Below, piece by piece: positions 52,791 through 64,000 of a stretch of 64,000 bases of DNA. The notes beneath the pieces are model-generated. The model ran no database searches. It was not told the DNA's origin and saw only the letters and a list, made by a program, of their open reading frames with translations. A program made the translations under genes and the position numbers. The stretch lies in NCBI GenBank assembly GCA_029834535.1, contig JAQMWT010000544.1:124001-188000 (forward strand), read 5' to 3'. Position 1 is the first letter of the stretch, and every line of letters starts with the position of its first letter. The stretch comes from Chrysophaeum taylorii (lineage: Eukaryota > Sar > Pelagophyceae > Pelagomonadales > Pelagomonadaceae).

Positions 52791-54227
52791 GTGCTAAAAG
52801 TAAGAGAGCTAGCCCTAGGATAGGGGATATTAACCCTAAATCAAATTTTCTATCTCTACGCCCTCACAGATTGAACTCGGTGAGCGAAATCTGGATCAAA
52901 CTAAGCAGGAAGCGACTTTCCATCGACAAGGATGTGTAGAGAAATCTGCTAACTCCTACCCTTATTCCGTCCGTTGAGAACGCGATCTCTTCCTTGCCCT
53001 TCTCCTTCCTTTCTACACAGTCAATTAATACTCTGATCTGTGCTCACGCTCATCATCGTATGGTCTAGCGCGCCCCGCAGGTATGTAGTAATTACATGTT
53101 ACCCTGATGTGCTGCTATGTATCGTCTGTCGTGTGAAGAGGCTGGGGGGACCACTGCCTGGGTTCCCTGAAACCTACATTTTTGCCAGACTCACGCGGTG
53201 AGACGGGATGGTCTCTCAGTGATCTCACCACTGCCTAGCGGAATACTCAGCAGGTTATGGGACCAGCGGGGTCCTGAGGGATCATGTGTTGCATGCACGT
53301 TTACCATTGGGTTTTGGATCGTTACCGCGCCGATCTAGCCTCGCCATGCAACACAATTGTTTGTATACGCTATAACATGGGTTTGTACATAGCTACATCG
53401 CACACGTTAAGACTGCGTACCCCCTGTGTGCTTTTTGTAGTATCGTATTGTCGTGAAAGTGTCGGTGTGTGTGTAGTCTGTACAAGTCCTGTATTGGTTG
53501 TGCACGCACGCTTGGAATATTTTTTTGGTATGTCCTCTTTTTTGGATGCTCCACGATAGTACACAACATGCCGCTCTCCGAGCACCCCCTTACCACCTGC
53601 CTGTTCAGTGTATGCCCCTTTAACACTGGCAGAAACCACAGTTTTGCACAGTTGCCAAATAGGCGCTTCCATTGTTTACCTGATGAGTGTACATAGACAC
53701 CACCGCTAGACAGAGCCCCCTAGAATGTTCTAGATGGTGTCAATTCTGCTCTCTGACAACCCACAGGTTCAGTCACAGTTCTCTTGTAGAACGAGCAGTA
53801 AAGGTCGCACCCAAAGCAGTCTGGGTGCTGACATTCCCTTACTTAAGGTTCCCGTTGATTTTCTCAGCGAGAACAACCATTCCAACACCAGAGTGACGGT
53901 GTTCACCTTGGTTATGTTGAAGATTTGAATACCAGGTGCCTCATATCTGAGGCGTTCCCACTCATATCAGACCAAGTAGCACAGTTGGCTACTGTTTGCT
54001 ACGCTAACGAGGTCAGGGCTTTTCCGCCCGAAATTAACGATCGCCTTGAGGATGGTGAATGCAACCTTAACCTCACCCATTCTCGCGAACTTGCTCTCGG
54101 CCTAGCCAGCCATTACCAATAAATACTTAAACTTTTTCGATGCAGTGTCTCCGAATGATGTCTCGTATTTGAATCAAGAATTAAACGCTGTTGTGTACAT
54201 ACAATTGGTGTACATGTTGTTCATTAA
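52791..54227. other. AT-richer stretch left of the large retroelement
   Basis: Base composition drops in GC compared with the host genes. Short ORFs only. This is where a 5' LTR and primer-binding site would be expected, but the 3' LTR is outside the window, so no terminal repeat can be matched and no convincing primer-binding site was seen. Confidence 0.4.
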
Positions 54228-55373
54228 ATGTGTGCGTTCTTTCAAGCACCTCCTGTTTCAAATCAGCCGTTGGACACCCACGTTTTCGAACTTGACCTCA
54301 CGCAGAACTCTTTCCCACATCTGTTTCCGACCGAAATGTCGTTAAACTATTGGCCAGAACGTTTTACTGAGTCTGGACCCAGCGCTATTCTTACTACTGA
54401 TTCCAATGGGCGGCTTTCCTTATGCCATACTGCCGAGTCGGTAAACTTTACTGAAGCTGCCCTTGCCCAGCTCTCTGAGGAGCAGCGAAAATGAACTATC
54501 CTCTGACAACACCAGCAACAATCGCCACGATAGAGGATGGGTCGACTGGTGCCTCATCTATGAAACACGCACCTCCACTAGAGCGCAACCTGAAGCCAAC
54601 AGACTATGTCATCCTTCTGACTCTTCAGCTATTCTTGAGTACGCACTGGACCTCTACAACTCAGTGTCCAATACCACAAGCGATAAAAGACGCCTAGAAC
54701 CGCCAGTCTCTTGGATCCCTTACGTAGAAGGATTGTCCACACATCGAAAGCCCAAATTACTGCTAACTCAACTGCTGGACTCCACAGACACTGAACTGGC
54801 GCACACAGCACATGTACTTGCGTCACTTACCAACTCAGCCAATGGACAACAGTCGAAACCCGCATTTAACGCACGACGCCTACGTAACTCAAAAGACGCT
54901 AGTCAGCCCTTCTTCCCCAATGATCTTAGCTACTACCGATCCGGTGACTCCTATTTCACCAGAGCCCGCAGTCCTGGTCAATCTAACGATCGCCCCGTGT
55001 ATGCTCGCACCTTTGACAGACCTTCTCGATCTGATATGAAATTGTTAGATCGCACTAAGCATACTATGCATGCACTCAAAGATCAATTCCGGGAGCTCTC
55101 CAAATACGTCAATCAAACTACTATACTACCTCTCAGCTGCAAGATAAGATTACAAAGATATTTGAAACGTTGTTGCAATCTGCAGATATTATCGCTACTA
55201 CGTCTAACCTACAGACAATAATAGTACAGACTTGCTCCGCTCAAATGATTAACTTTCCTATGCCGAAGATATCATTCGGAATGTTGACATACATCTATCT
55301 GCCTTCGACCGAAACGTCGTTAAACTGTGGGGGAGACCAACCTACCATGCCTGCACACCTCTACTCCATCTAA
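54228..55373 (+). pseudogene. Gag-like region of the large retroelement (frame-broken)
   Basis: Three overlapping frames (54228-54494, 54463-55221, 55170-55373) cover this region. The middle one is a polar, Ser/Asn-rich protein of ~250 residues with a helical stretch near its end (T-K-H-T-M-H-A-L-K-D-Q-F-R-E-L) that could be coiled coil, as in Gag proteins. No CCHC zinc knuckle was found. The motif T-E-x-S-L-N-[YC] occurs at 54330-54350 and 55308-55328, and T-A-E-S-V-N-F at 54429-54449. Identification as Gag rests on position before the protease, not on homology. Confidence 0.45.
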
Positions 55374-56382
55374 CTCAAGTGGCATCAGCTCTTCACCAGC
55401 CACTGCTGCCGCGGAATCAGTCAATTTTACAGCTGACACCATAGCAAAATTGTCACCTGTGCGACTTACGGAGCTCTCGTCACATGTCACTGCAGCAATG
55501 TGCCGAAGGAGTTTCGATCAAGCAGCGGCCAATACTACATTGTCGAGCAACCCACAAGATCTCTCACCATTCGATCTTAACAACGGTCTCGGCAAGGACA
55601 ACGGGGAACCTACCGCGCACGTCGTTCCTATTACCTCTTCACAAGTTGTGGTCACCTCAAAAAAACTGCTCACTCGAACTAATTTGTTCGCAGCCAGCAT
55701 CCCTTCTACCAGTGTACCTCGCGAAAACGCTTTTCTCACCAAATACCGGAGAGACCATAATCTTCCCCTCCATTTTCAATTTCTATACTTGGACAGTTGT
55801 GCCTCCATCTCGCTGATGACCACATTTGATTTTGCTTTACCGAATCACATTTTTCCCGTAGACGCTAAATGTGCCCCAGTTGTCCAAACTGCCACTGGAC
55901 AACAGCAGGTATCGCATATCATGTTTATGAAAAATATAGTATCGCCTTTACCTGCTCACCCAGGCATTGACTACGTCAAGCTTGACTATGTCCTCAAACC
56001 GGTGCAGGGTCGACACTTATTTATCCTAAGTGCCCCCGAATGGAACAAGGCTCAGCTAACTGTCACTCTCAATGACAGTGAACAGCCAAATATGTCGCAT
56101 CTCACTAGCTTACTTGATAAAGACGTGCATGTGCCCATTCACTACGTCGACCACGACCTCCCGGCACTACCGTGTCTACCCTACACACTTGCACGCGATA
56201 GGAACCTTGAGCTACGTTCACTATCCTTCCCGCTGAAGAGGTACAACGAAAACCGTGACCTTTGCCACTATTACAATTACCTGGTCACCAAGCTCAAAAC
56301 TCGACCGTGGCTGCGTACTCTACTTCTCAACCTTCGGAAGCAGAATGAATATGTAAGAAACAACACTCCACCTCTCACCTGA
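55327..56382 (+). pseudogene. Retroelement aspartic-protease region
   Basis: 351 open codons ended by TGA at 56380. Near 55783-55812 it reads F-L-Y-L-D-S-C-A-S-I-S-L, the active-site loop of copia proteases (L-D-S-G-A-S), followed about 30 residues later by V-V-Q-T-A-T-G and a repeat of hydrophobic strands. Gly of the D-S-G triad is replaced by Cys (TGT, one base from GGT), which would impair catalysis in this copy. The motif A-A-E-S-V-N-F lies upstream at 55408-55428. The frame resumes after the stop and runs into the methyltransferase, so pol was probably one polyprotein. Confidence 0.7.
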
Positions 56383-56409
56383 CTACGCACTCGTCCAGCA
56401 TTCCTATCA

Positions 56410-58340
56410 ACTACCAACAATGGCTCTCGCAAACCAACTGTCATGTTACTATGCTCTGGATTGTCAACACCTGCGTTTCTGTCACAGGCCACCAATGACT
56501 TGGGCTTAAACATCAACGTTAAGATTGCTGTTGAGTCCGACGAAACGCTTGTACGCATGTTACGCAAACACTTTCCAAAGATTATTATTTTCGAATCTCT
56601 ACCCTCCTTCCTCAATCATCTCCAGTCTATAACGGAGGATGAAAGACGGAATTTTTACTGTGATGTGATAGAAATCGCTCCCCCTTGTACCAACCGAAAT
56701 CTTCACAAGAGCACCAAAACATCCGACTTGGCCAGTTTGCTCGATGACTCCCTCTTTGACAGTATGCTATCTGTCATCAAACTACTCAAACCCTTAGTTC
56801 TACTTGCGGAGATGACACCCCCTCACAAGTGTATTCACAGGGATCACATCTCCGTAGCTAACCTCATTCACGCCACACTGGACTACACTGTTGATGTAGT
56901 CGACCGCTTCCCTACCTATCTGTGCGGCGATTATCAATCTCGGGACGATGGATCTGCATTGCTCGCAGGTACAACACTGGACCCATGGACATCCTGTCCT
57001 GGCCGAACCAGCACCCGAAGCGCTTCTTGGACATAGCAGATGACGTTAACTCCGTGCCTAAAACCCTCTGGCTCTCCAAGACTCTGTCTCAAGGCTGGGT
57101 TCGCACTTACCCAGATCCACCATTGGTTCACTCCCCCAAGACGTTTCCCTTGTACTCTCGTACTGGCTCCGTTCGGTTAAGCTTCTATGAGCTTGAGACC
57201 CTCAACCTACTCTTCCTCAGGCTTCATTCACAGCAAGCTTTCGAACAACATACACATAAAACGCACTCGGAGTGTTCCTATCATCACCTTGGCTTCAAGA
57301 GGTCTTCTAATCAACCACTACCCGGATCATCAAATCCTCTCCGCCTCAAGGCATTTATCACTCTATACAATTTGTTCGCCAGAATCTCGCCGAACAACGC
57401 TACACCTGTATCTTACTATGTTGCGATCTTCGAAACTAACCAGCCCGCTCCTAGGCTATTTCTTACAACTTCCTCATCTACCTTCAATATCCACACTCTT
57501 ACCGGTGGACACCACTCTGATGGCAACTTACTAGTTGAGAACAATGCAAGCAAATACCAGGCTTCCATTGACGCTTATGGATCTACTTACACCCTAACCG
57601 CCAGCGATAATCCCGCCGATAAGAAGCTCCATCTCGACTCGTTTCAGGGATACCTATGGCTAGTGCAAGCCTACCCCCTTGTCAACGCAGCCCACAACAC
57701 TGTCCCTGCCATCCGCAACTTACTCCAACAGTGCTCTCTTGTTATACCTGACTGTCTCTCACAACCAATCTTCCGATCAATTCACTTTCAAGGACAGATA
57801 TTTTTCCTTGGAAGATTACCATCTTTCTCATAGCAGGTATATTGGCTACTTACGCGGCAGCGACCGCAAGCTCGGATCCAAAATTCACTCTATGTCGGCT
57901 CCATTGCCAACTATCCGGGGATATGCCAATATCATCTTGTTGGACCCTCGCAACGGCAAACTCCGCTACCCCACGCGAGTCGAACTTATCAAAGCCAACA
58001 ACCACACTCGCTTCCAGACGTCCTTCTTACTTTCATTGAAGAAAGACTTATGCTACGACCCACTCAGCAATGCTCTAGCTGCGGGCACTTATCACACCCT
58101 TTACACCCACATCTGTCGCGTGGTCGCCGATATGAAGTCACTTATGTTGAACCCTTCCTTTCAACATGACAGTGCTACCTTGAAGAAGACTTACGTATCT
58201 ACCTTCCTCACCCGTGAACTGCTTCTTTCCAGTCACAGCTCAGACACTATCTTTCAGGCGGCTGCATGCATTCATGAGTCATATTTCCAACTGCAGCTGG
58301 ACCGAAAAGTCGTTAAACTACCATTCCTCAGGAACAACCC
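56410..58340 (+). pseudogene. C5 cytosine DNA methyltransferase domain in the retroelement
   Basis: Motif I: M-L-L-C-S-G-L-S-T-P-A-F (from 56443), then I-A-V-E-S-D-E-T, the acidic cofactor-binding residue. Motif IV: D-V-I-E-I-A-P-P-C-T (56662-56691), with the catalytic Cys codon at 56686-56688. Motif VI: L-L-A-E-M-T-P-P (Glu codon 56809-56811), in place of E-N-V. Motif VIII: D-Y-Q-S-R, then after a one-base frameshift near 56940 G-R-W-I-C-I-A-R-R. Two later places could be motif IX: R-L-S-F-Y-E-L-E-T (near 57175) and R-Y-P-T-R-V-E-L-I (57976-58002). The second follows A-P-L-P-T-I-R-G-Y and precedes S-N-A-L-A-A-G-T-Y, which resembles motif X (G-N-A-V). The enzyme family methylates cytosine C5 using AdoMet. 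All motifs are present, but frameshifts break the copy. Confidence 0.75.
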
Positions 58341-58549
58341 CTGAAGAAGCCCTTGCTATAACTCCCACTGTTGATGATGCTGACACTAACGATGATCCTG
58401 ATGCCCCATCATTAGACGCACCCACAGAGCTCAAATTCAATGTCCGTCGGAAGAAACACATCCCGGTCAAAGCAATCCCTCGCAAATCACTCGCCCATGG
58501 CACCGTCGAATACCAAAATGCCAAAGAACGCGCCACCGCTTCCACAATG

Positions 58550-59500
58550 TACATCACTGTCCTGATATCGTTGCCGCCAAAGCCCCGGACGTTCTTGCTC
58601 GCCCTGGCTTCTCAGCATCCGATATTCCCACAGGGATATGTGCATAGACTGCATTTGCCACAACAAACGTCACCGCCACGCCCATACTAACGAAATCAAG
58701 CCCAACTTTGAACAGACCCACCGACCTGGTGAAGTCTGGGCCTGCGATGGTGGCTACGTAACCATACCTTCTGAATGGGGCGGCTTCTCCCATATTATCG
58801 TTTTCAAAGAACTACTATCGAAGTTCCTACTCGCCTACTTCACTCGCACTACTAACGCCACCGAATTTACTCGAGCATTAGACTACCTGCATACCTTTTG
58901 CAAAACTCAACTCAATGTGCATCTACGCACAGTATACTCCGACGCGTTCCGGCCGTACTTCAGCCAACACATCACTACTCCCTACAGGGTCGAACACGGC
59001 ATGAACCTTGTTGCGTTCCCACCTTACCTTCACCATTTTAACCACGAAGTCCAACAGAGCATAGGCTTTGTCGCCTCCGCCTCCTCTACTCGCCTCCGCA
59101 ACCTTCTCAATGCCCATTACCCTGGCGCCAAGATCGTGGAACCTGCCATCCACTTCCCATGGGTTGTAATCCACACCATCCAATCGTACAATCTATTGCC
59201 AAATGCCTCACTCAAACGCATTCACCACGCCATCATCAGTCCTCGACAGTTTATCTATAATCAACTAGCAACACCTCAACATGATCTCCTCAAGATCTTT
59301 GGCAGCGAGTGCTTCCTCCTCATTGAGCCTCATGAAAACCACAAGTATGAGCCCTCTCGGCGCCGCTATCTCTACCTGTGCTGCGCCAACTCCCAAAACC
59401 CACTTGTCTCTCCTCATGTTGACCATCAAGCTGATGTTGTCCTTAATCCTGAAAATGGCCAGCTTCGCATCACCTCTAAACTGACCTTCACCTACATGAT
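58550..59500 (+). pseudogene. Copia pre-integrase zinc motif and integrase core
   Basis: V-H-H-C-P-D-I at about 58548 and, one frame later from 58638, C-I-D-C-I-C-H-N-K-R form a plausible H-H-C-C zinc finger. The core then reads G-E-V-W-A-C-D-G-G-Y (first Asp), V-Y-S-D-A-F (second Asp) and H-E-V-Q-Q-S-I-G (Glu), the D-D-E order of retroviral-type integrases. From 58638 the frame is continuous into reverse transcriptase (to 61136), through a Pro-rich linker at about 59620-59720. The zinc motif and core are in different frames, so one frameshift near 58630 breaks this copy. Confidence 0.8.
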
Positions 59501-60479: not shown

Positions 60480-62360
60480 GCTTCGACCGAAACGTCGTTA
60501 AACTATGGCTCTCCAGCCACTATAGGTCCGGACGAATACAAAGTCCAAGAGGCCGACGTATCCATCGACGAGTACAAGCTCAAGTGTCTTCAAGGCCTTT
60601 CCCCTGAAGACAGACAAGCCTATGTCAAGGCCATCGCAAAGGAACTACATGATATAGTGCGCTTCGGCTGCTTTAAGCTATCTCTACCTGATGCCTCTAC
60701 TCGTCCAATTGACAGCCGGCTCGTCCTCAAGATCAAGACGAACGCGTCTGGCGATTACATCAAGCACAAGGCCAGATTAGTCTTGCGTGGATTTCTAGCC
60801 TCACTTGGCGCTGATTTCTTTGGGACGTTCAGCCCTATGGCAACTATGACCGCCATACGTGTCATCTTAGCAATTGCGGCGTACAAAAGACTACCGGTCT
60901 ACCATAGTGACGTGCCCAACGCGTTCGTCCAGTCCGACATCGACGCACACGTCTACGTCCAACTCCCGGATGGCATCAAACTACTTGATCCTCACGACGA
61001 TAAATACCGTGGCCGCCGCTTACCCAAGTTGCTAAAATCCCTCTATGGACTCAGACAATCTCCCTCTCTCTGGAACAAAGAGATCGACGGCTTCTATCGG
61101 AGTCTTGGATACAAGCGACTCCATACGGATACGTGATTATATGTGCGCACATCCCACACTCGCTTTGTCATGTGCAGTTTATCAGTGGACGACATTGTTA
61201 TAGTGTTAAATGATGACACTCTCCGCACAGAGTTACAAGGTGCGTTACATGAGCGTTTCTCTGTGGAACAATTCGAGCCAGTCCATACTCGTTTGGGAGT
61301 GCGTGTCTGCCGAACGTCGGATGGATCCATATCGTTAGATGTCAAAGCCGAACTAGAAGCATTATTTACCGACCATCCCATACTAAAAAACCTCACCCCA
61401 CTACGGTATCCTATGTCATCCACTTTTACTTATAAAGAAGGCTCCCCTTCTACCGATGTGGAAATTTATATCCACGATCACTTCGCTACTCTACTTGGTA
61501 AATTGGTCTTCACGCGAGTTGCTTGTCGCCCCGATTTCTCCCGAGCTATAGGACGCTGTTCCCGAGGTATGCACTCTACCACCTATGTGCATATCCAAAT
61601 GCTCGGTCACCTCCTAAGGTACCTCAGTAAACCTGCCAATCGAGCTCTTCGTCTCTGGTTGCACCCTAAAGGGAATGCTATCGAAAACCATATACGCGTT
61701 ATTTCACCTAATAGAGTTGACCTGTCAACAATAATCGACTACCGGGACAAAGACGTCGCTGCTGGCAAGTTCGACCCTCTAGTTGCTATGGTGGATGCCG
61801 ACAACGCTCCTTCACTGGAACAGGAAGACAGAAAGTCCACTACTGGCTTTGTTTTCTACCTGTTCAACTGCCTCATCGCCTGGAAAAGCAAACTACAACC
61901 CATAGTTTCGTGTTCTACCCACGAAGCTGAGCTTATCGCTCTCAGCATCTGCGCTGACGAAGCAGTCTGGCTCCGTAAGTTACTTCTTGAGCTCTCGTTT
62001 GTTGTTAATCCGACATTCTATATGAATACGCAAACTGACCCTCCTTCCGATTTTGACGCTGATGACAATCCTATTGCCGAGGATATGCGCTTCATCAGAA
62101 GCCTACCCCTTTTGTCTGATAATGCTGCAGCTGTGCACACTTCCAACAATCCTGACGGTTCTTCTCGTAGCAAAGCCCTTTCCACTCGATGGTTCAAAAT
62201 TCGCGAATATGTCGCACTACAGAAAATTCGTGTTCACCATGTCCCTGGCAAGTTAAACGTAGCTGATGGCTTCACAAAGCCTCTTGCAGCCGACTTTACC
62301 ACGCTCCGTTCTCTTCTAGGTATGCACCATGCTACTGACTCAGACCAAGAAGATACCTAA
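60480..62360 (+). pseudogene. Copia reverse transcriptase and RNase H
   Basis: Starts after the T-E-T-S-L-N-Y motif at 60486-60506. Landmarks: K-A-R-L-V-L-R-G-F (about 60768), F-S-P-M-A-T-M-T-A-I-R, D-V-P-N-A-F-V-Q-S-D (the first catalytic Asp region), S-L-Y-G-L-R-Q-S-P, then the V-D-D active site in L-S-V-D-D-I-V-I-V (about 61180-61206). An in-frame TGA at 61134 interrupts it between the two. RNase H follows: D-R-K-S-T-T-G-F-V-F-Y, C-S-T-H-E-A-E-L-I-A-L, L-S-D-N-A-A-A-V, H-H-V-P-G-K-L-N-V-A-D. The same frame serves both ORFs (58638-61136 and 61143-62360), so a single point change would explain the stop. Confidence 0.9.
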
Positions 62361-62434
62361 TCTCTAGCCCTGACCGCAATGTCATTAAACTAGCCCTCAT
62401 CTTTTGCCACTACTTTTTGTGTACGTCGTCGCCA

Positions 62435-64000
62435 ATGCATCACTGGCGCAGCAACCACCCACGTGGAGTCACGCCCGCCCGACGCGAGCTACCTCGCACA
62501 CTTACGCCCGCTGAGTCGTCTACCAACACTCCTCCGAACCGTAGGAAACCAAATCGCGACGACATTACTCGTCTGCTCTCATCCTCTGCTGCTGCGATCC
62601 GGCCTGGCTCCAACCCCCTAACCACGTTTGCCGATGCTGTCGTTTTAAATGTTTCTCAGCAGGAACATGGATCATCTATCACGTCAGACCAAAAATTCAA
62701 AACTCCTTTCACCGGTCTCTTATCATCTTTTCTACATACTGACCTATTCAAGGCACTTGATTCCATCTACGCATCTCGCGATCACTTGGACTACCAGATC
62801 TTCATGGAACTGTCGAACTTTTGCTCAGTCAGGACACCAGTCGTCTTCCCTCTGCCTTCTGCACCTTCAATATATGCTACACTTTGCTATCGAGGTCTCA
62901 AGAAGGAGACCCAGCAATCCTCATTTCACTGCCTTCAATGCTTCGACAACGACGGCAAACCGCTCCAAATCTGTGTCTCCAATTATAAAAGGAAGATAGA
63001 CGAGCTACCTGCTGCTGTCCTAGAACATCTCGCCAGCGAATCACATATTCGAAATGCCTTCATACCTGTCTCTATCCCGACTATGGGTATGTGTTGTGCG
63101 TGTAGAAACTCTGACCACATTGCCCTCTCGTTTCTTTTCCTCGCGTGGAACGCACGTATAATTGTTTTTCCTTGTGAGTCATCACCCGCTGGTCACCTCC
63201 GTGCCACCATCCTCCGTGTTTTCTTTCTCCCATTGGACCTGCAAGCACTGCTCCAAGAACTAATCAAGGAACACGCACTACCCGCTGATATTATTATTAT
63301 TATGCCTTCCCCAGTCACAACAGATTCACAAAATGCGGTGGCCTACCCCTTCAACCTCAAGTTTATTTCTCGGCTTCATCTGGAACACCTGTCGCTTATT
63401 GTGACAATTGTTCGCACACATGTAAAGAAACAGTCGATTATTAAGGCAAGCGCTTATCAGCCTTTGGTTCACGCTCTCTGCCGCTCTCTCGTACATCACA
63501 TTACTGAGTACAACACACTGGCACATGATGAACGACCACCATCTATCTTTGACGAAATATCTTCACCAACTACCTTTTGCGACACCGATCGCAAAGATTT
63601 TGCTAAGCTCTTATCATCACGTTACCCCGATCTCTATAACGAACTTACCGCTGCGACCGAAAAGTCAGTAAACTACCCGCCAGTGGCACCTACTGCCCCG
63701 GCACCAACACAACCTAGTACTACTACCTCTCCAGATCTTGCGGCATTATCCTCTCAGGTGACTCAACTTACCCAACAGGTTACAATTCTCCAAACTTCAT
63801 ATGGACAAATGGACCAACGTCTCCACGCCTTAACTACTGAAAATGCTGCCTTACGGTCTGATTTAACTACTGCTGTCACAGACCTCCGTGACATGGAAAA
63901 TCGGCTATTCCCAGCCACTACTAATACCAACGTTCTGCTGGTAACCCTATTCAAGGTGTGTGAGTTACTCAACAGACTCACTCTTGCTTTGAATGACCAA
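62435..64000 (+). CDS. Long open frame after RNase H, 3' end outside the window
   Basis: From the ATG at 62435 the frame is open for 522 codons to the last base with no stop, so the protein continues beyond the window. It starts 75 bases after the RNase H stop, with a motif relic (T-A-M-S-L-N, then stop) between. Residues 1-70 are basic and Pro/Ser-rich; ~85-390 look globular with Cys pairs (C-L-Q-C and C-C-A-C); at 63656-63676 lies T-E-K-S-V-N-Y; then a Pro/Thr linker and a strong coiled coil (S-Q-V-T-Q-L-T-Q-Q-V, onward to residue ~490). No domain is recognised. It may be a third module of the same element or the Gag of a second copy in tandem. Confidence 0.65.
   Translation, partial: MHHWRSNHPRGVTPARRELPRTLTPAESSTNTPPNRRKPNRDDITRLLSSSAAAIRPGSNPLTTFADAVVLNVSQQEHGSSITSDQKFKTPFTGLLSSFLHTDLFKALDSIYASRDHLDYQIFMELSNFCSVRTPVVFPLPSAPSIYATLCYRGLKKETQQSSFHCLQCFDNDGKPLQICVSNYKRKIDELPAAVLEHLASESHIRNAFIPVSIPTMGMCCACRNSDHIALSFLFLAWNARIIVFPCESSPAGHLRATILRVFFLPLDLQALLQELIKEHALPADIIIIMPSPVTTDSQNAVAYPFNLKFISRLHLEHLSLIVTIVRTHVKKQSIIKASAYQPLVHALCRSLVHHITEYNTLAHDERPPSIFDEISSPTTFCDTDRKDFAKLLSSRYPDLYNELTAATEKSVNYPPVAPTAPAPTQPSTTTSPDLAALSSQVTQLTQQVTILQTSYGQMDQRLHALTTENAALRSDLTTAVTDLRDMENRLFPATTNTNVLLVTLFKVCELLNRLTLALNDQ

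Follow-up and report, generated by a model that had tools for sequence, protein, structure and literature searches.

A putative C5-cytosine methyltransferase behind a conserved in-frame UGA in the pol region of a multi-copy Ty1/copia retrotransposon lineage

A C5-cytosine methyltransferase-like domain (MT) lies between the protease (PR) and the integrase (IN) of a Ty1/copia element in the window (the whole stretch of 64,000 nucleotides of DNA that was analysed), and copy numbers and selection data support that it is a regular, selectively conserved part of this copia family, present in very many copies. Our favored explanation, to which we give a probability of roughly 0.58, is that the MT is a genuine component of pol in a multi-copy Ty1/copia lineage organized as gag-PR / UGA / MT-IN-RT-RH / ORF3 (RT, reverse transcriptase; RH, RNase H; ORF3, a third open reading frame [ORF]), for which we propose readthrough of the UGA, packaging of the enzyme, and methylation of the cDNA. 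The MT heads Pol, and readthrough is probably required to reach it.

The element in the window is 11.9 kb long and lies on the plus strand, with most of its length within the window, as delimited by its LTRs and a 5-bp TSD (Table 1). Its assignment to Ty1/copia is based on an RVT_2 (PF07727) match, the order PR-IN-RT-RH, LTRs with TG...CA ends, and the 5-bp TSD. A first-pass annotation, made from the sequence alone, had described a copia protease and a copia integrase flanking the domain in the same orientation, and this was confirmed: the protease active site at 55786-55809 is followed by IN, RT, and RH on the same strand. PR and RH are named here by motif and position, without a Pfam match, and IN is supported by an rve-like match at 58719-58967 (E = 9e-5, below the cut-off) and by a match to SH3_retrovirus (E = 0.0026). 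The 5' and 3' LTRs of the window copy are ∼92% identical, and the copy is dead, with frame changes in gag, MT, and IN (including three within 56383-58345) and one stop that splits RT. A second copy (C127) has LTRs that are 97% identical and the TSD CTGAG. The third ORF of the window copy (window 62339-64000 plus L043 1-453) is 36% identical to that of another copy (L040 3374-4987). Half-tRNA priming is expected for copia elements. We take the putative primer-binding site GGTTATGGGACCAGCG to resemble the complement of an initiator-tRNA anticodon arm, a look that belongs to the stretch following the 5' LTR, GGTTATGGG[AC]CCAG, both in the window (53253-53268) and at another locus (L039 1969-1984); a pattern search for a host tRNA fitting the primer site gave no match.

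Table 1. Features of the window copy of the copia element (window coordinates unless a locus is named)
Feature	Position	Strand	Remarks
TSD GGATG (5 bp)	52930..52934	.	Partner right after 3' LTR at L043 863-867
5' LTR, TG...CA ends	52935..53252	+	
Putative primer-binding site GGTTATGGGACCAGCG	53253..53268	+	
gag part, frame-broken pieces	53940..55318	+	Match to gag-PR ORF of another copy
20-nt repeat ACCGNAANGTCGTTAAACTA, copy 1, gag region (TEMSLNY)	54330..54349	+	
20-nt repeat, copy 2, pre-PR joint (TETSLNC)	55308..55327	+	
gag-PR ORF end	55426..56379	+	Terminal residues ...NNTPPLT
Protease active site YLDSCASI	55786..55809	+	
In-frame UGA, gag-PR/pol boundary	56380..56382	+	Putative readthrough stop; context UGA-CUA here
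C5-cytosine methyltransferase-like domain (MT), pol head	56383..58325	+	Motifs I, II, IV, VI, VIII, long TRD, IX, X; frame-broken
Motif I LLCSGLSTPAF	56446-56478	+	
Motif II VESDE	56530-56559	+	
Motif IV EIAPPC	56671..56688	+	Catalytic-type Cys
Motif VI VLLAEMTPP	56797-56823	+	
Motif VIII CGDYQSR	56923-56943	+	Continues as RWICIARR 56946-56969, other frame
First IX-like segment RTGSVRLSFYELETL	57159-57203	+	
Pre-IX APLPTIRG	57898-57921	+	
APLPTIRG + motif IX + motif X block	57898..58110	+	
Motif IX GKLRYPTRVELIKANN	57955-58002	+	
Motif X SNALAAGTYHTLYTH	58066-58110	+	
20-nt repeat, copy 3, MT/IN joint (TEKSLNY)	58301..58320	+	Putative protease cleavage site
Integrase region	58537..59500	+	Two frames in window copy
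20-nt repeat, copy 4, IN/RT joint (TETSLNY)	60486..60505	+	Putative protease cleavage site
RVT_2 reverse transcriptase, then RNase H region	60696..62357	+	RVT_2 E 2.8e-27, first frame
Third ORF after pol	62339..64000	+	Continues beyond window end; coiled-coil-like weak Pfam matches
20-nt repeat, copy 5, right after pol stop (TAMSLN-stop)	62373..62392	+	
20-nt repeat, copy 6, within third ORF (TEKSVNY)	63656..63675	+	
3' LTR, past window end by ∼0.55 kb	L043 552-862 (window-equivalent 64552-64862)		

The ordered motifs I, IV, VI-like, VIII, and IX/X-like that had been claimed for the domain were found at 56446-58110, all between the copia PR and IN. Under the C5-MTase scheme, which we assume for the motif names (I, II, IV, VI, VIII, TRD, IX, X), motif I, the motif IV Cys, the motif VI Glu, the motif VIII Arg, and motifs IX and X are present in order, and motifs I and VI are atypical: in the window lineage, motif VI reads AEM and not ENV, and motif I is without its usual Phe. 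The region from VIII to IX spans ∼290 amino acids. What had been read as a duplicated motif IX turned out, in the alignment to a second lineage (lineage B, see below), to be one segment of the TRD region plus the true motif IX. Four natural copies keep the MT open across 644-645 residues. Conservation, counted by locus identifier over the sequences that cover each site (with the C127 copy counted twice and the window included), is 35 of 36 for both the motif IV Cys and the motif VI Glu, 38 of 39 for the motif VIII Arg, and complete (32 of 32) for the motif X Asn.

Searching the 70.8-Mb genome with one MT piece of the window gave 150 scored matches out of 909 candidates; one is the window itself, and the 149 further matches have identities of 70-96%. 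An RT piece gave 150 scored matches out of 1561 candidates, and for 64 of these 150 listed RTs, an MT from the list lies 3-8 kb upstream (at 4.07-4.22 kb in 37 cases), the other 86 having no MT among the MT matches listed. When 18 slices upstream of unpaired RTs were inspected, 10 contained an MT (some partial or diverged) and 8 contained none. Two of these eight are deletions that join gag-PR to pol with different ends: both have lost the PR end, one along with the complete MT and one along with the first half of it; the rest comprise one lineage B pol, one LTR, and four slices without similarity to the element queries used. MT pieces were present in three of three loci of a further subfamily (subfamily C) that were fetched by RT. 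No MT-less sister clade was seen in the small sample of 18 slices, in which loss of the MT looks sporadic. The domain, noted at first in one copy, thus recurs in at least 149 further matches, and copies without it are scattered, two of them being demonstrable deletions. Median dN/dS values within subfamilies A1 and A2 were 0.135 and 0.056, respectively, for MT motifs I-VIII, 0.164 and 0.110 for motifs IX-X, and 0.186 and 0.174 for the PR end; these are within-subfamily medians, with dS saturated in 144 of 156 A1-A2 pairs (MT I-VIII) and, within A2, in 50 of 650, and the pair counts include both orders and one copy twice (L036 = L039).

The window lineage (lineage A) alone gave no significant match to PF00145, NCBIfam, or the PDB, in which only chance matches were obtained. 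PF00145 matched none of nine frame pieces of the window and nothing in subfamily C, and its two matches among 17 lineage sequences (one of them the window piece) were sub-threshold. Protein database searches returned nothing at E ≤ 0.001 with the MT of lineage A and nothing at E ≤ 0.01 with that of lineage B; the corresponding search with IN-RT returned seven distant copia-type proteins, and no relatives were found in the viral contigs that were scanned. The case for the window MT as METHYLTRANSFERASE rests on homology to lineage B, a second copia lineage of the same genome, two copies of which have PR, MT, IN, and RT together in a single open frame. PF00145 gave 57 matches over the whole genome (70.8 Mb), and 8 of these were opened: the first two are host genes and the six others (L003-L008) are lineage B elements. 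The open frames of these two lineage B copies have 1951-1952 and 1868 amino acids, and the longer one matches PF00145 with an E value of 1.1e-7 (32.1 bits; cut-off, 22) alongside RVT_2. The membership in PF00145 that the first-pass annotation had expected therefore fails for the window lineage, with a best E value of 0.0072 that is below the cut-off, and holds for the homologous lineage B, in which PF00145 and RVT_2 match the same ORF. The RVT_2 E values are 1.6e-38 for lineage B and 3.5e-43 for subfamily C. The protease active site reads D-S/T-C-A, with Cys for Gly, in lineage A and subfamily C (window 55786-55809; L039, gag-PR ORF; L078), and DGGA in lineage B. Downstream of the 3' LTR of the window element, at a distance of ∼2.5 kb, is a lineage B element with an MT (L043 3384-4500, C544 about 191384-192500; MT match, 192291-192881).

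Subfamily C, which was found from RT matches, is ∼50% identical to A across the first 300 residues. A profile of A plus C aligned with B over 484 columns with a score that none of 300 column shuffles attained, the longest shuffle alignment covering 132 columns, and a further comparison of A plus C with B gave an E value of 0.0046 with an alignment that runs through motif X. Without subfamily C, the comparison of A with B gave a borderline result, with equally high scores in 1 of 150 and in 4 of 150 shuffles, and its reversed control reached as high a score over 33 columns. Joint profiles of A and B matched C5 MTases exclusively in the PDB at E values up to 0.1, the best matches having E values of 2e-6 and 1.3e-5, followed by M.HhaI at 0.003-0.005; lineage B drives these matches, because no MTase is found in the PDB with A by itself. 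None of the 36 PDB sequences matched by the A-plus-B profile at E ≤ 10 is named DNMT3, and bacterial enzymes, DNMT1, and DNMT2 are among them. Outside the general motifs, A and B have in common a PP after motif VI and an IP..LW after motif VIII. The MTs of A, B, and C are taken here as one family, and a single MT capture preceding the A/B/C split would therefore be the simplest reading.

The domain had been described as placed inside the polyprotein rather than in a separate ORF, a description that needs revision: gag-PR and MT-IN-RT are set apart by a conserved UGA. Of 31 distinct copies (the window, C42, and the copies that match best), 28 have a gag-PR frame that closes with TGA and is followed directly, without a change of frame, by the MT; two of the remaining three have the TGA plus a nearby one-base frame change, and one is rearranged. 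The exact junction pattern, with the three bases at the stop left free, occurs at 69 places, of which 68 have TGA and 1 has TTA, and subfamily C has TGA at the same junction (followed by CGC in one C copy). The frames are open on either side of this conserved in-frame stop, as in gag-pol layouts of the readthrough type. The bases after the UGA, in 29 copies, are CUA (21 copies), CUG (2), AUG (4), and AUA (2), and UGA followed by CUA is a leaky context. Our best guess from these patterns is that the UGA is passed by readthrough; the six of 29 copies that have UGA-AUG or UGA-AUA, and not UGA-C, count against it. Nothing unusual was found in the RNA structure downstream of the UGA in five sequences (z, −0.01 to 0.75), and RNA structure was rejected as a readthrough stimulator on this basis. 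UGA as a general sense codon is disfavored by 34 TGG and 0 TGA codons in a 2085-codon DNMT5-like host frame, a suggestive count, as this frame was picked as open. In lineage B, PR lies in the frame of the MT and gag overlaps in another frame, which suggests that its gag-pol switch is a frameshift and not readthrough; the overlap of gag with PR-MT-IN-RT lies near CTTTTTCGCTGA (L044 3097-3133).

A 20-nt repeat, ACCGNAANGTCGTTAAACTA, occurs six times in the window (up to 2 mismatches; 0.02 expected), all inside the element, and encodes T-E/A-x-S-L/V-N-Y or nearly so in the fitting frame. Among 30 other loci (up to 3 mismatches), 28 carry the repeat at the pre-PR joint and 21 at the MT/IN joint, the other 9 being without it in the stretch expected to contain the MT/IN joint; it is also found at the IN/RT joint in two other copies, and in ORF3. 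The repeats at the joints are likely protease cleavage sites of the retroviral SxNY kind. The copies agree at the nucleotide level beyond what the encoded residues require, one of them lies after the pol stop, and the stretch expected to contain the MT/IN joint is without the repeat in 9 of 30 loci; the repeat may therefore not be only a cleavage site. The conserved third ORF downstream of RNase H also has an SLNY-type site.

For the window lineage, we propose that the UGA is read through by a small fraction of the ribosomes and that the MT would accordingly be produced only together with IN-RT-RH, in the Gag-Pol fraction, and would then be packaged in the particle. Cuts by PR at the SLNY sites would release the MT, which would methylate newly made cDNA at its cytosines, either ahead of integration or during it, and new copies would thus reach the genome already marked. 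A broader account, which we put forward tentatively and at somewhat less than even odds, is that an ancient MT capture gave rise to a Ty1/copia branch in this algal lineage and that a PR-MT-IN core would be shared by two or more deep lineages of this branch, one of which is too diverged for PF00145; in one lineage, the MT would come first in Pol, be rationed by the UGA, and be cut out at SLNY sites, and the cDNA would be methylated in the particle before integration, the element writing its own epigenetic state. If true, a PR-MT-IN core with a UGA-rationed, Pol-first MT would be a new pol architecture.

Alternatively, the UGA might be passed by termination-reinitiation, by insertion of selenocysteine, or by splicing of the RNA in a way that joins the two frames. 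The selenoproteomes of some chlorophyll-c algae are large, which would favor selenocysteine, and 4 of 29 copies have UGA-AUG; in three copies with the CUA context, however, the first in-frame AUG stands at codon 20-21, inside motif I, and reinitiation would therefore give a truncated MT, while the complete absence of TGA from the DNMT5-like frame with its 34 TGG codons is suggestive against such passage. We consider these routes unlikely, although they deserve mention. It is rather unlikely, too, that the fold was kept and catalysis lost, leaving a DNA- or chromatin-binding part that targets Pol: the strong divergence from PF00145 and the altered motifs I and VI (AEM) of the window lineage would fit this, but almost every sequence counted retains Cys, Glu, and Arg residues of the catalytic type, and constraint on the MT is stronger than that on the PR end.

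C5-MTase folds include RNA enzymes such as DNMT2, and the MT might be an RNA C5-methyltransferase whose substrate in the particle would be the genomic RNA or the tRNA primer and not the cDNA. The likeness of the putative primer site to an initiator-tRNA anticodon arm is in keeping with this idea, and RNA methylation is raised for the LINE-type DNMT by de Mendoza et al. (PMC5890265). We nevertheless judge it quite improbable, as the comparison of the lineage B MT with the host DNMT2-like protein reached a BLASTP E value of only 0.52, the ∼290-amino-acid VIII-IX region would be better suited to recognition of a DNA sequence, and the tRNA pattern search was without a match. That a host DNMT gene was inserted by chance in one dead copia copy has a negligible probability and was rejected; the window copy is indeed frame-broken, but there are 149 further matches at 70-96% identity, colinear with RT and under purifying selection, and the sister lineage B has a homologous domain at the same place.

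Retroviruses of the murine leukaemia virus type make Gag-Pol by readthrough across an in-frame stop, and the layout described here is similar in that a gag-side product and pol are joined over a conserved in-frame stop. It differs in that the stop is UGA and not UAG, that the MT and not the protease comes first after it, and that nothing unusual was seen in the downstream RNA structure of the five sequences. Among the closest described elements is KnitGypsy-Dnmt3 of the charophyte Klebsormidium nitens, a multi-copy LTR Gypsy element with a Dnmt3 in Pol and a Ka/Ks of <0.2, as given in the accessible part of de Mendoza et al. 2018 (PMC5890265). Both are multi-copy LTR retrotransposons with a cytosine MTase within pol; however, the element here is Ty1/copia and not Gypsy, one of its lineages is too diverged for PF00145 whereas the KnitGypsy enzyme is a recognisable Dnmt3, and the stop-codon gate present here is absent from the description in that part of the paper. 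The same text describes SymbioDIRS-Dnmt3 and SymbioLINE-Dnmt of the dinoflagellate Symbiodinium, with hundreds of copies, conserved catalytic residues, and purifying selection, reports that the DIRS enzyme methylates CG de novo, and presents Symbiodinium Copia elements as being without any DNMT domain (PMC5890265). The lineage here shares the many copies, the conserved catalytic residues, and the purifying selection with these DIRS and LINE elements, but is copia. A later paper (Mol Biol Evol 2025, PMC12344493), in the part available, refers to DNMT3 members in 'LTR Copia and DIRS' elements and cites the 2018 paper for streptophytes and dinoflagellates; it thus names Copia as a DNMT carrier, whereas the cited paper calls the LTR element Gypsy, and that part contains no structure, alga, or MT lineage like the one here. 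No description of this MT-copia lineage was found in the titles and abstract openings listed by searches of open-access papers.

Few cases exist in which a genomic parasite carries the class of enzyme that is used to silence it; Ty1/copia, described here with its layout, and a further algal host are added to them. A gene that may mark the element's new DNA is thus present in many mobile copies in this genome. The abundance of natural copies, the existence of two deep lineages, and a stop codon that would ration the enzyme make it directly testable what a retrotransposon gains from a DNA methyltransferase. Surveys based on PF00145 can miss such elements, as a lineage with at least 150 scored matches is invisible to it.

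The two host genes among the PF00145 matches encode a 2085-amino-acid DNMT5-like protein with PF00145 and SNF2 (L081 68-6322) and a 360-amino-acid PF00145 protein (L001 1498-2577) that we presume, by its features, to be DNMT2-like and that lies beside a gene for a chlorophyll-binding antenna protein of the chlorophyll a/c kind. From the host DNMT genes and the antenna gene, we infer a photosynthetic algal host that encodes methylation enzymes itself, and given the DNMT5-like gene, it probably has DNA methylation of its own. An antenna protein of the chlorophyll a/c kind argues against a charophyte, and 70.8 Mb would be a small genome for a dinoflagellate. The earlier view that the domain is of host type was not borne out by BLASTP, in which the lineage B MT, the one MT lineage compared, showed no significant similarity to the DNMT5-like or the DNMT2-like protein (E = 0.52 for the latter). 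The observed/expected ratios of CpG are 0.89-1.04 in the MT element stretches and 0.72 in the LTR, versus 1.23 in window positions 1-50000 and 1.47 in the host DNMT5-like ORF; TpG/CpA is raised in the element stretches, the G+C content differs between the compared sets, and the element stretches compared all come from MT-carrying elements. This CpG pattern fits methylation of the element, but the host's own enzymes could cause it.
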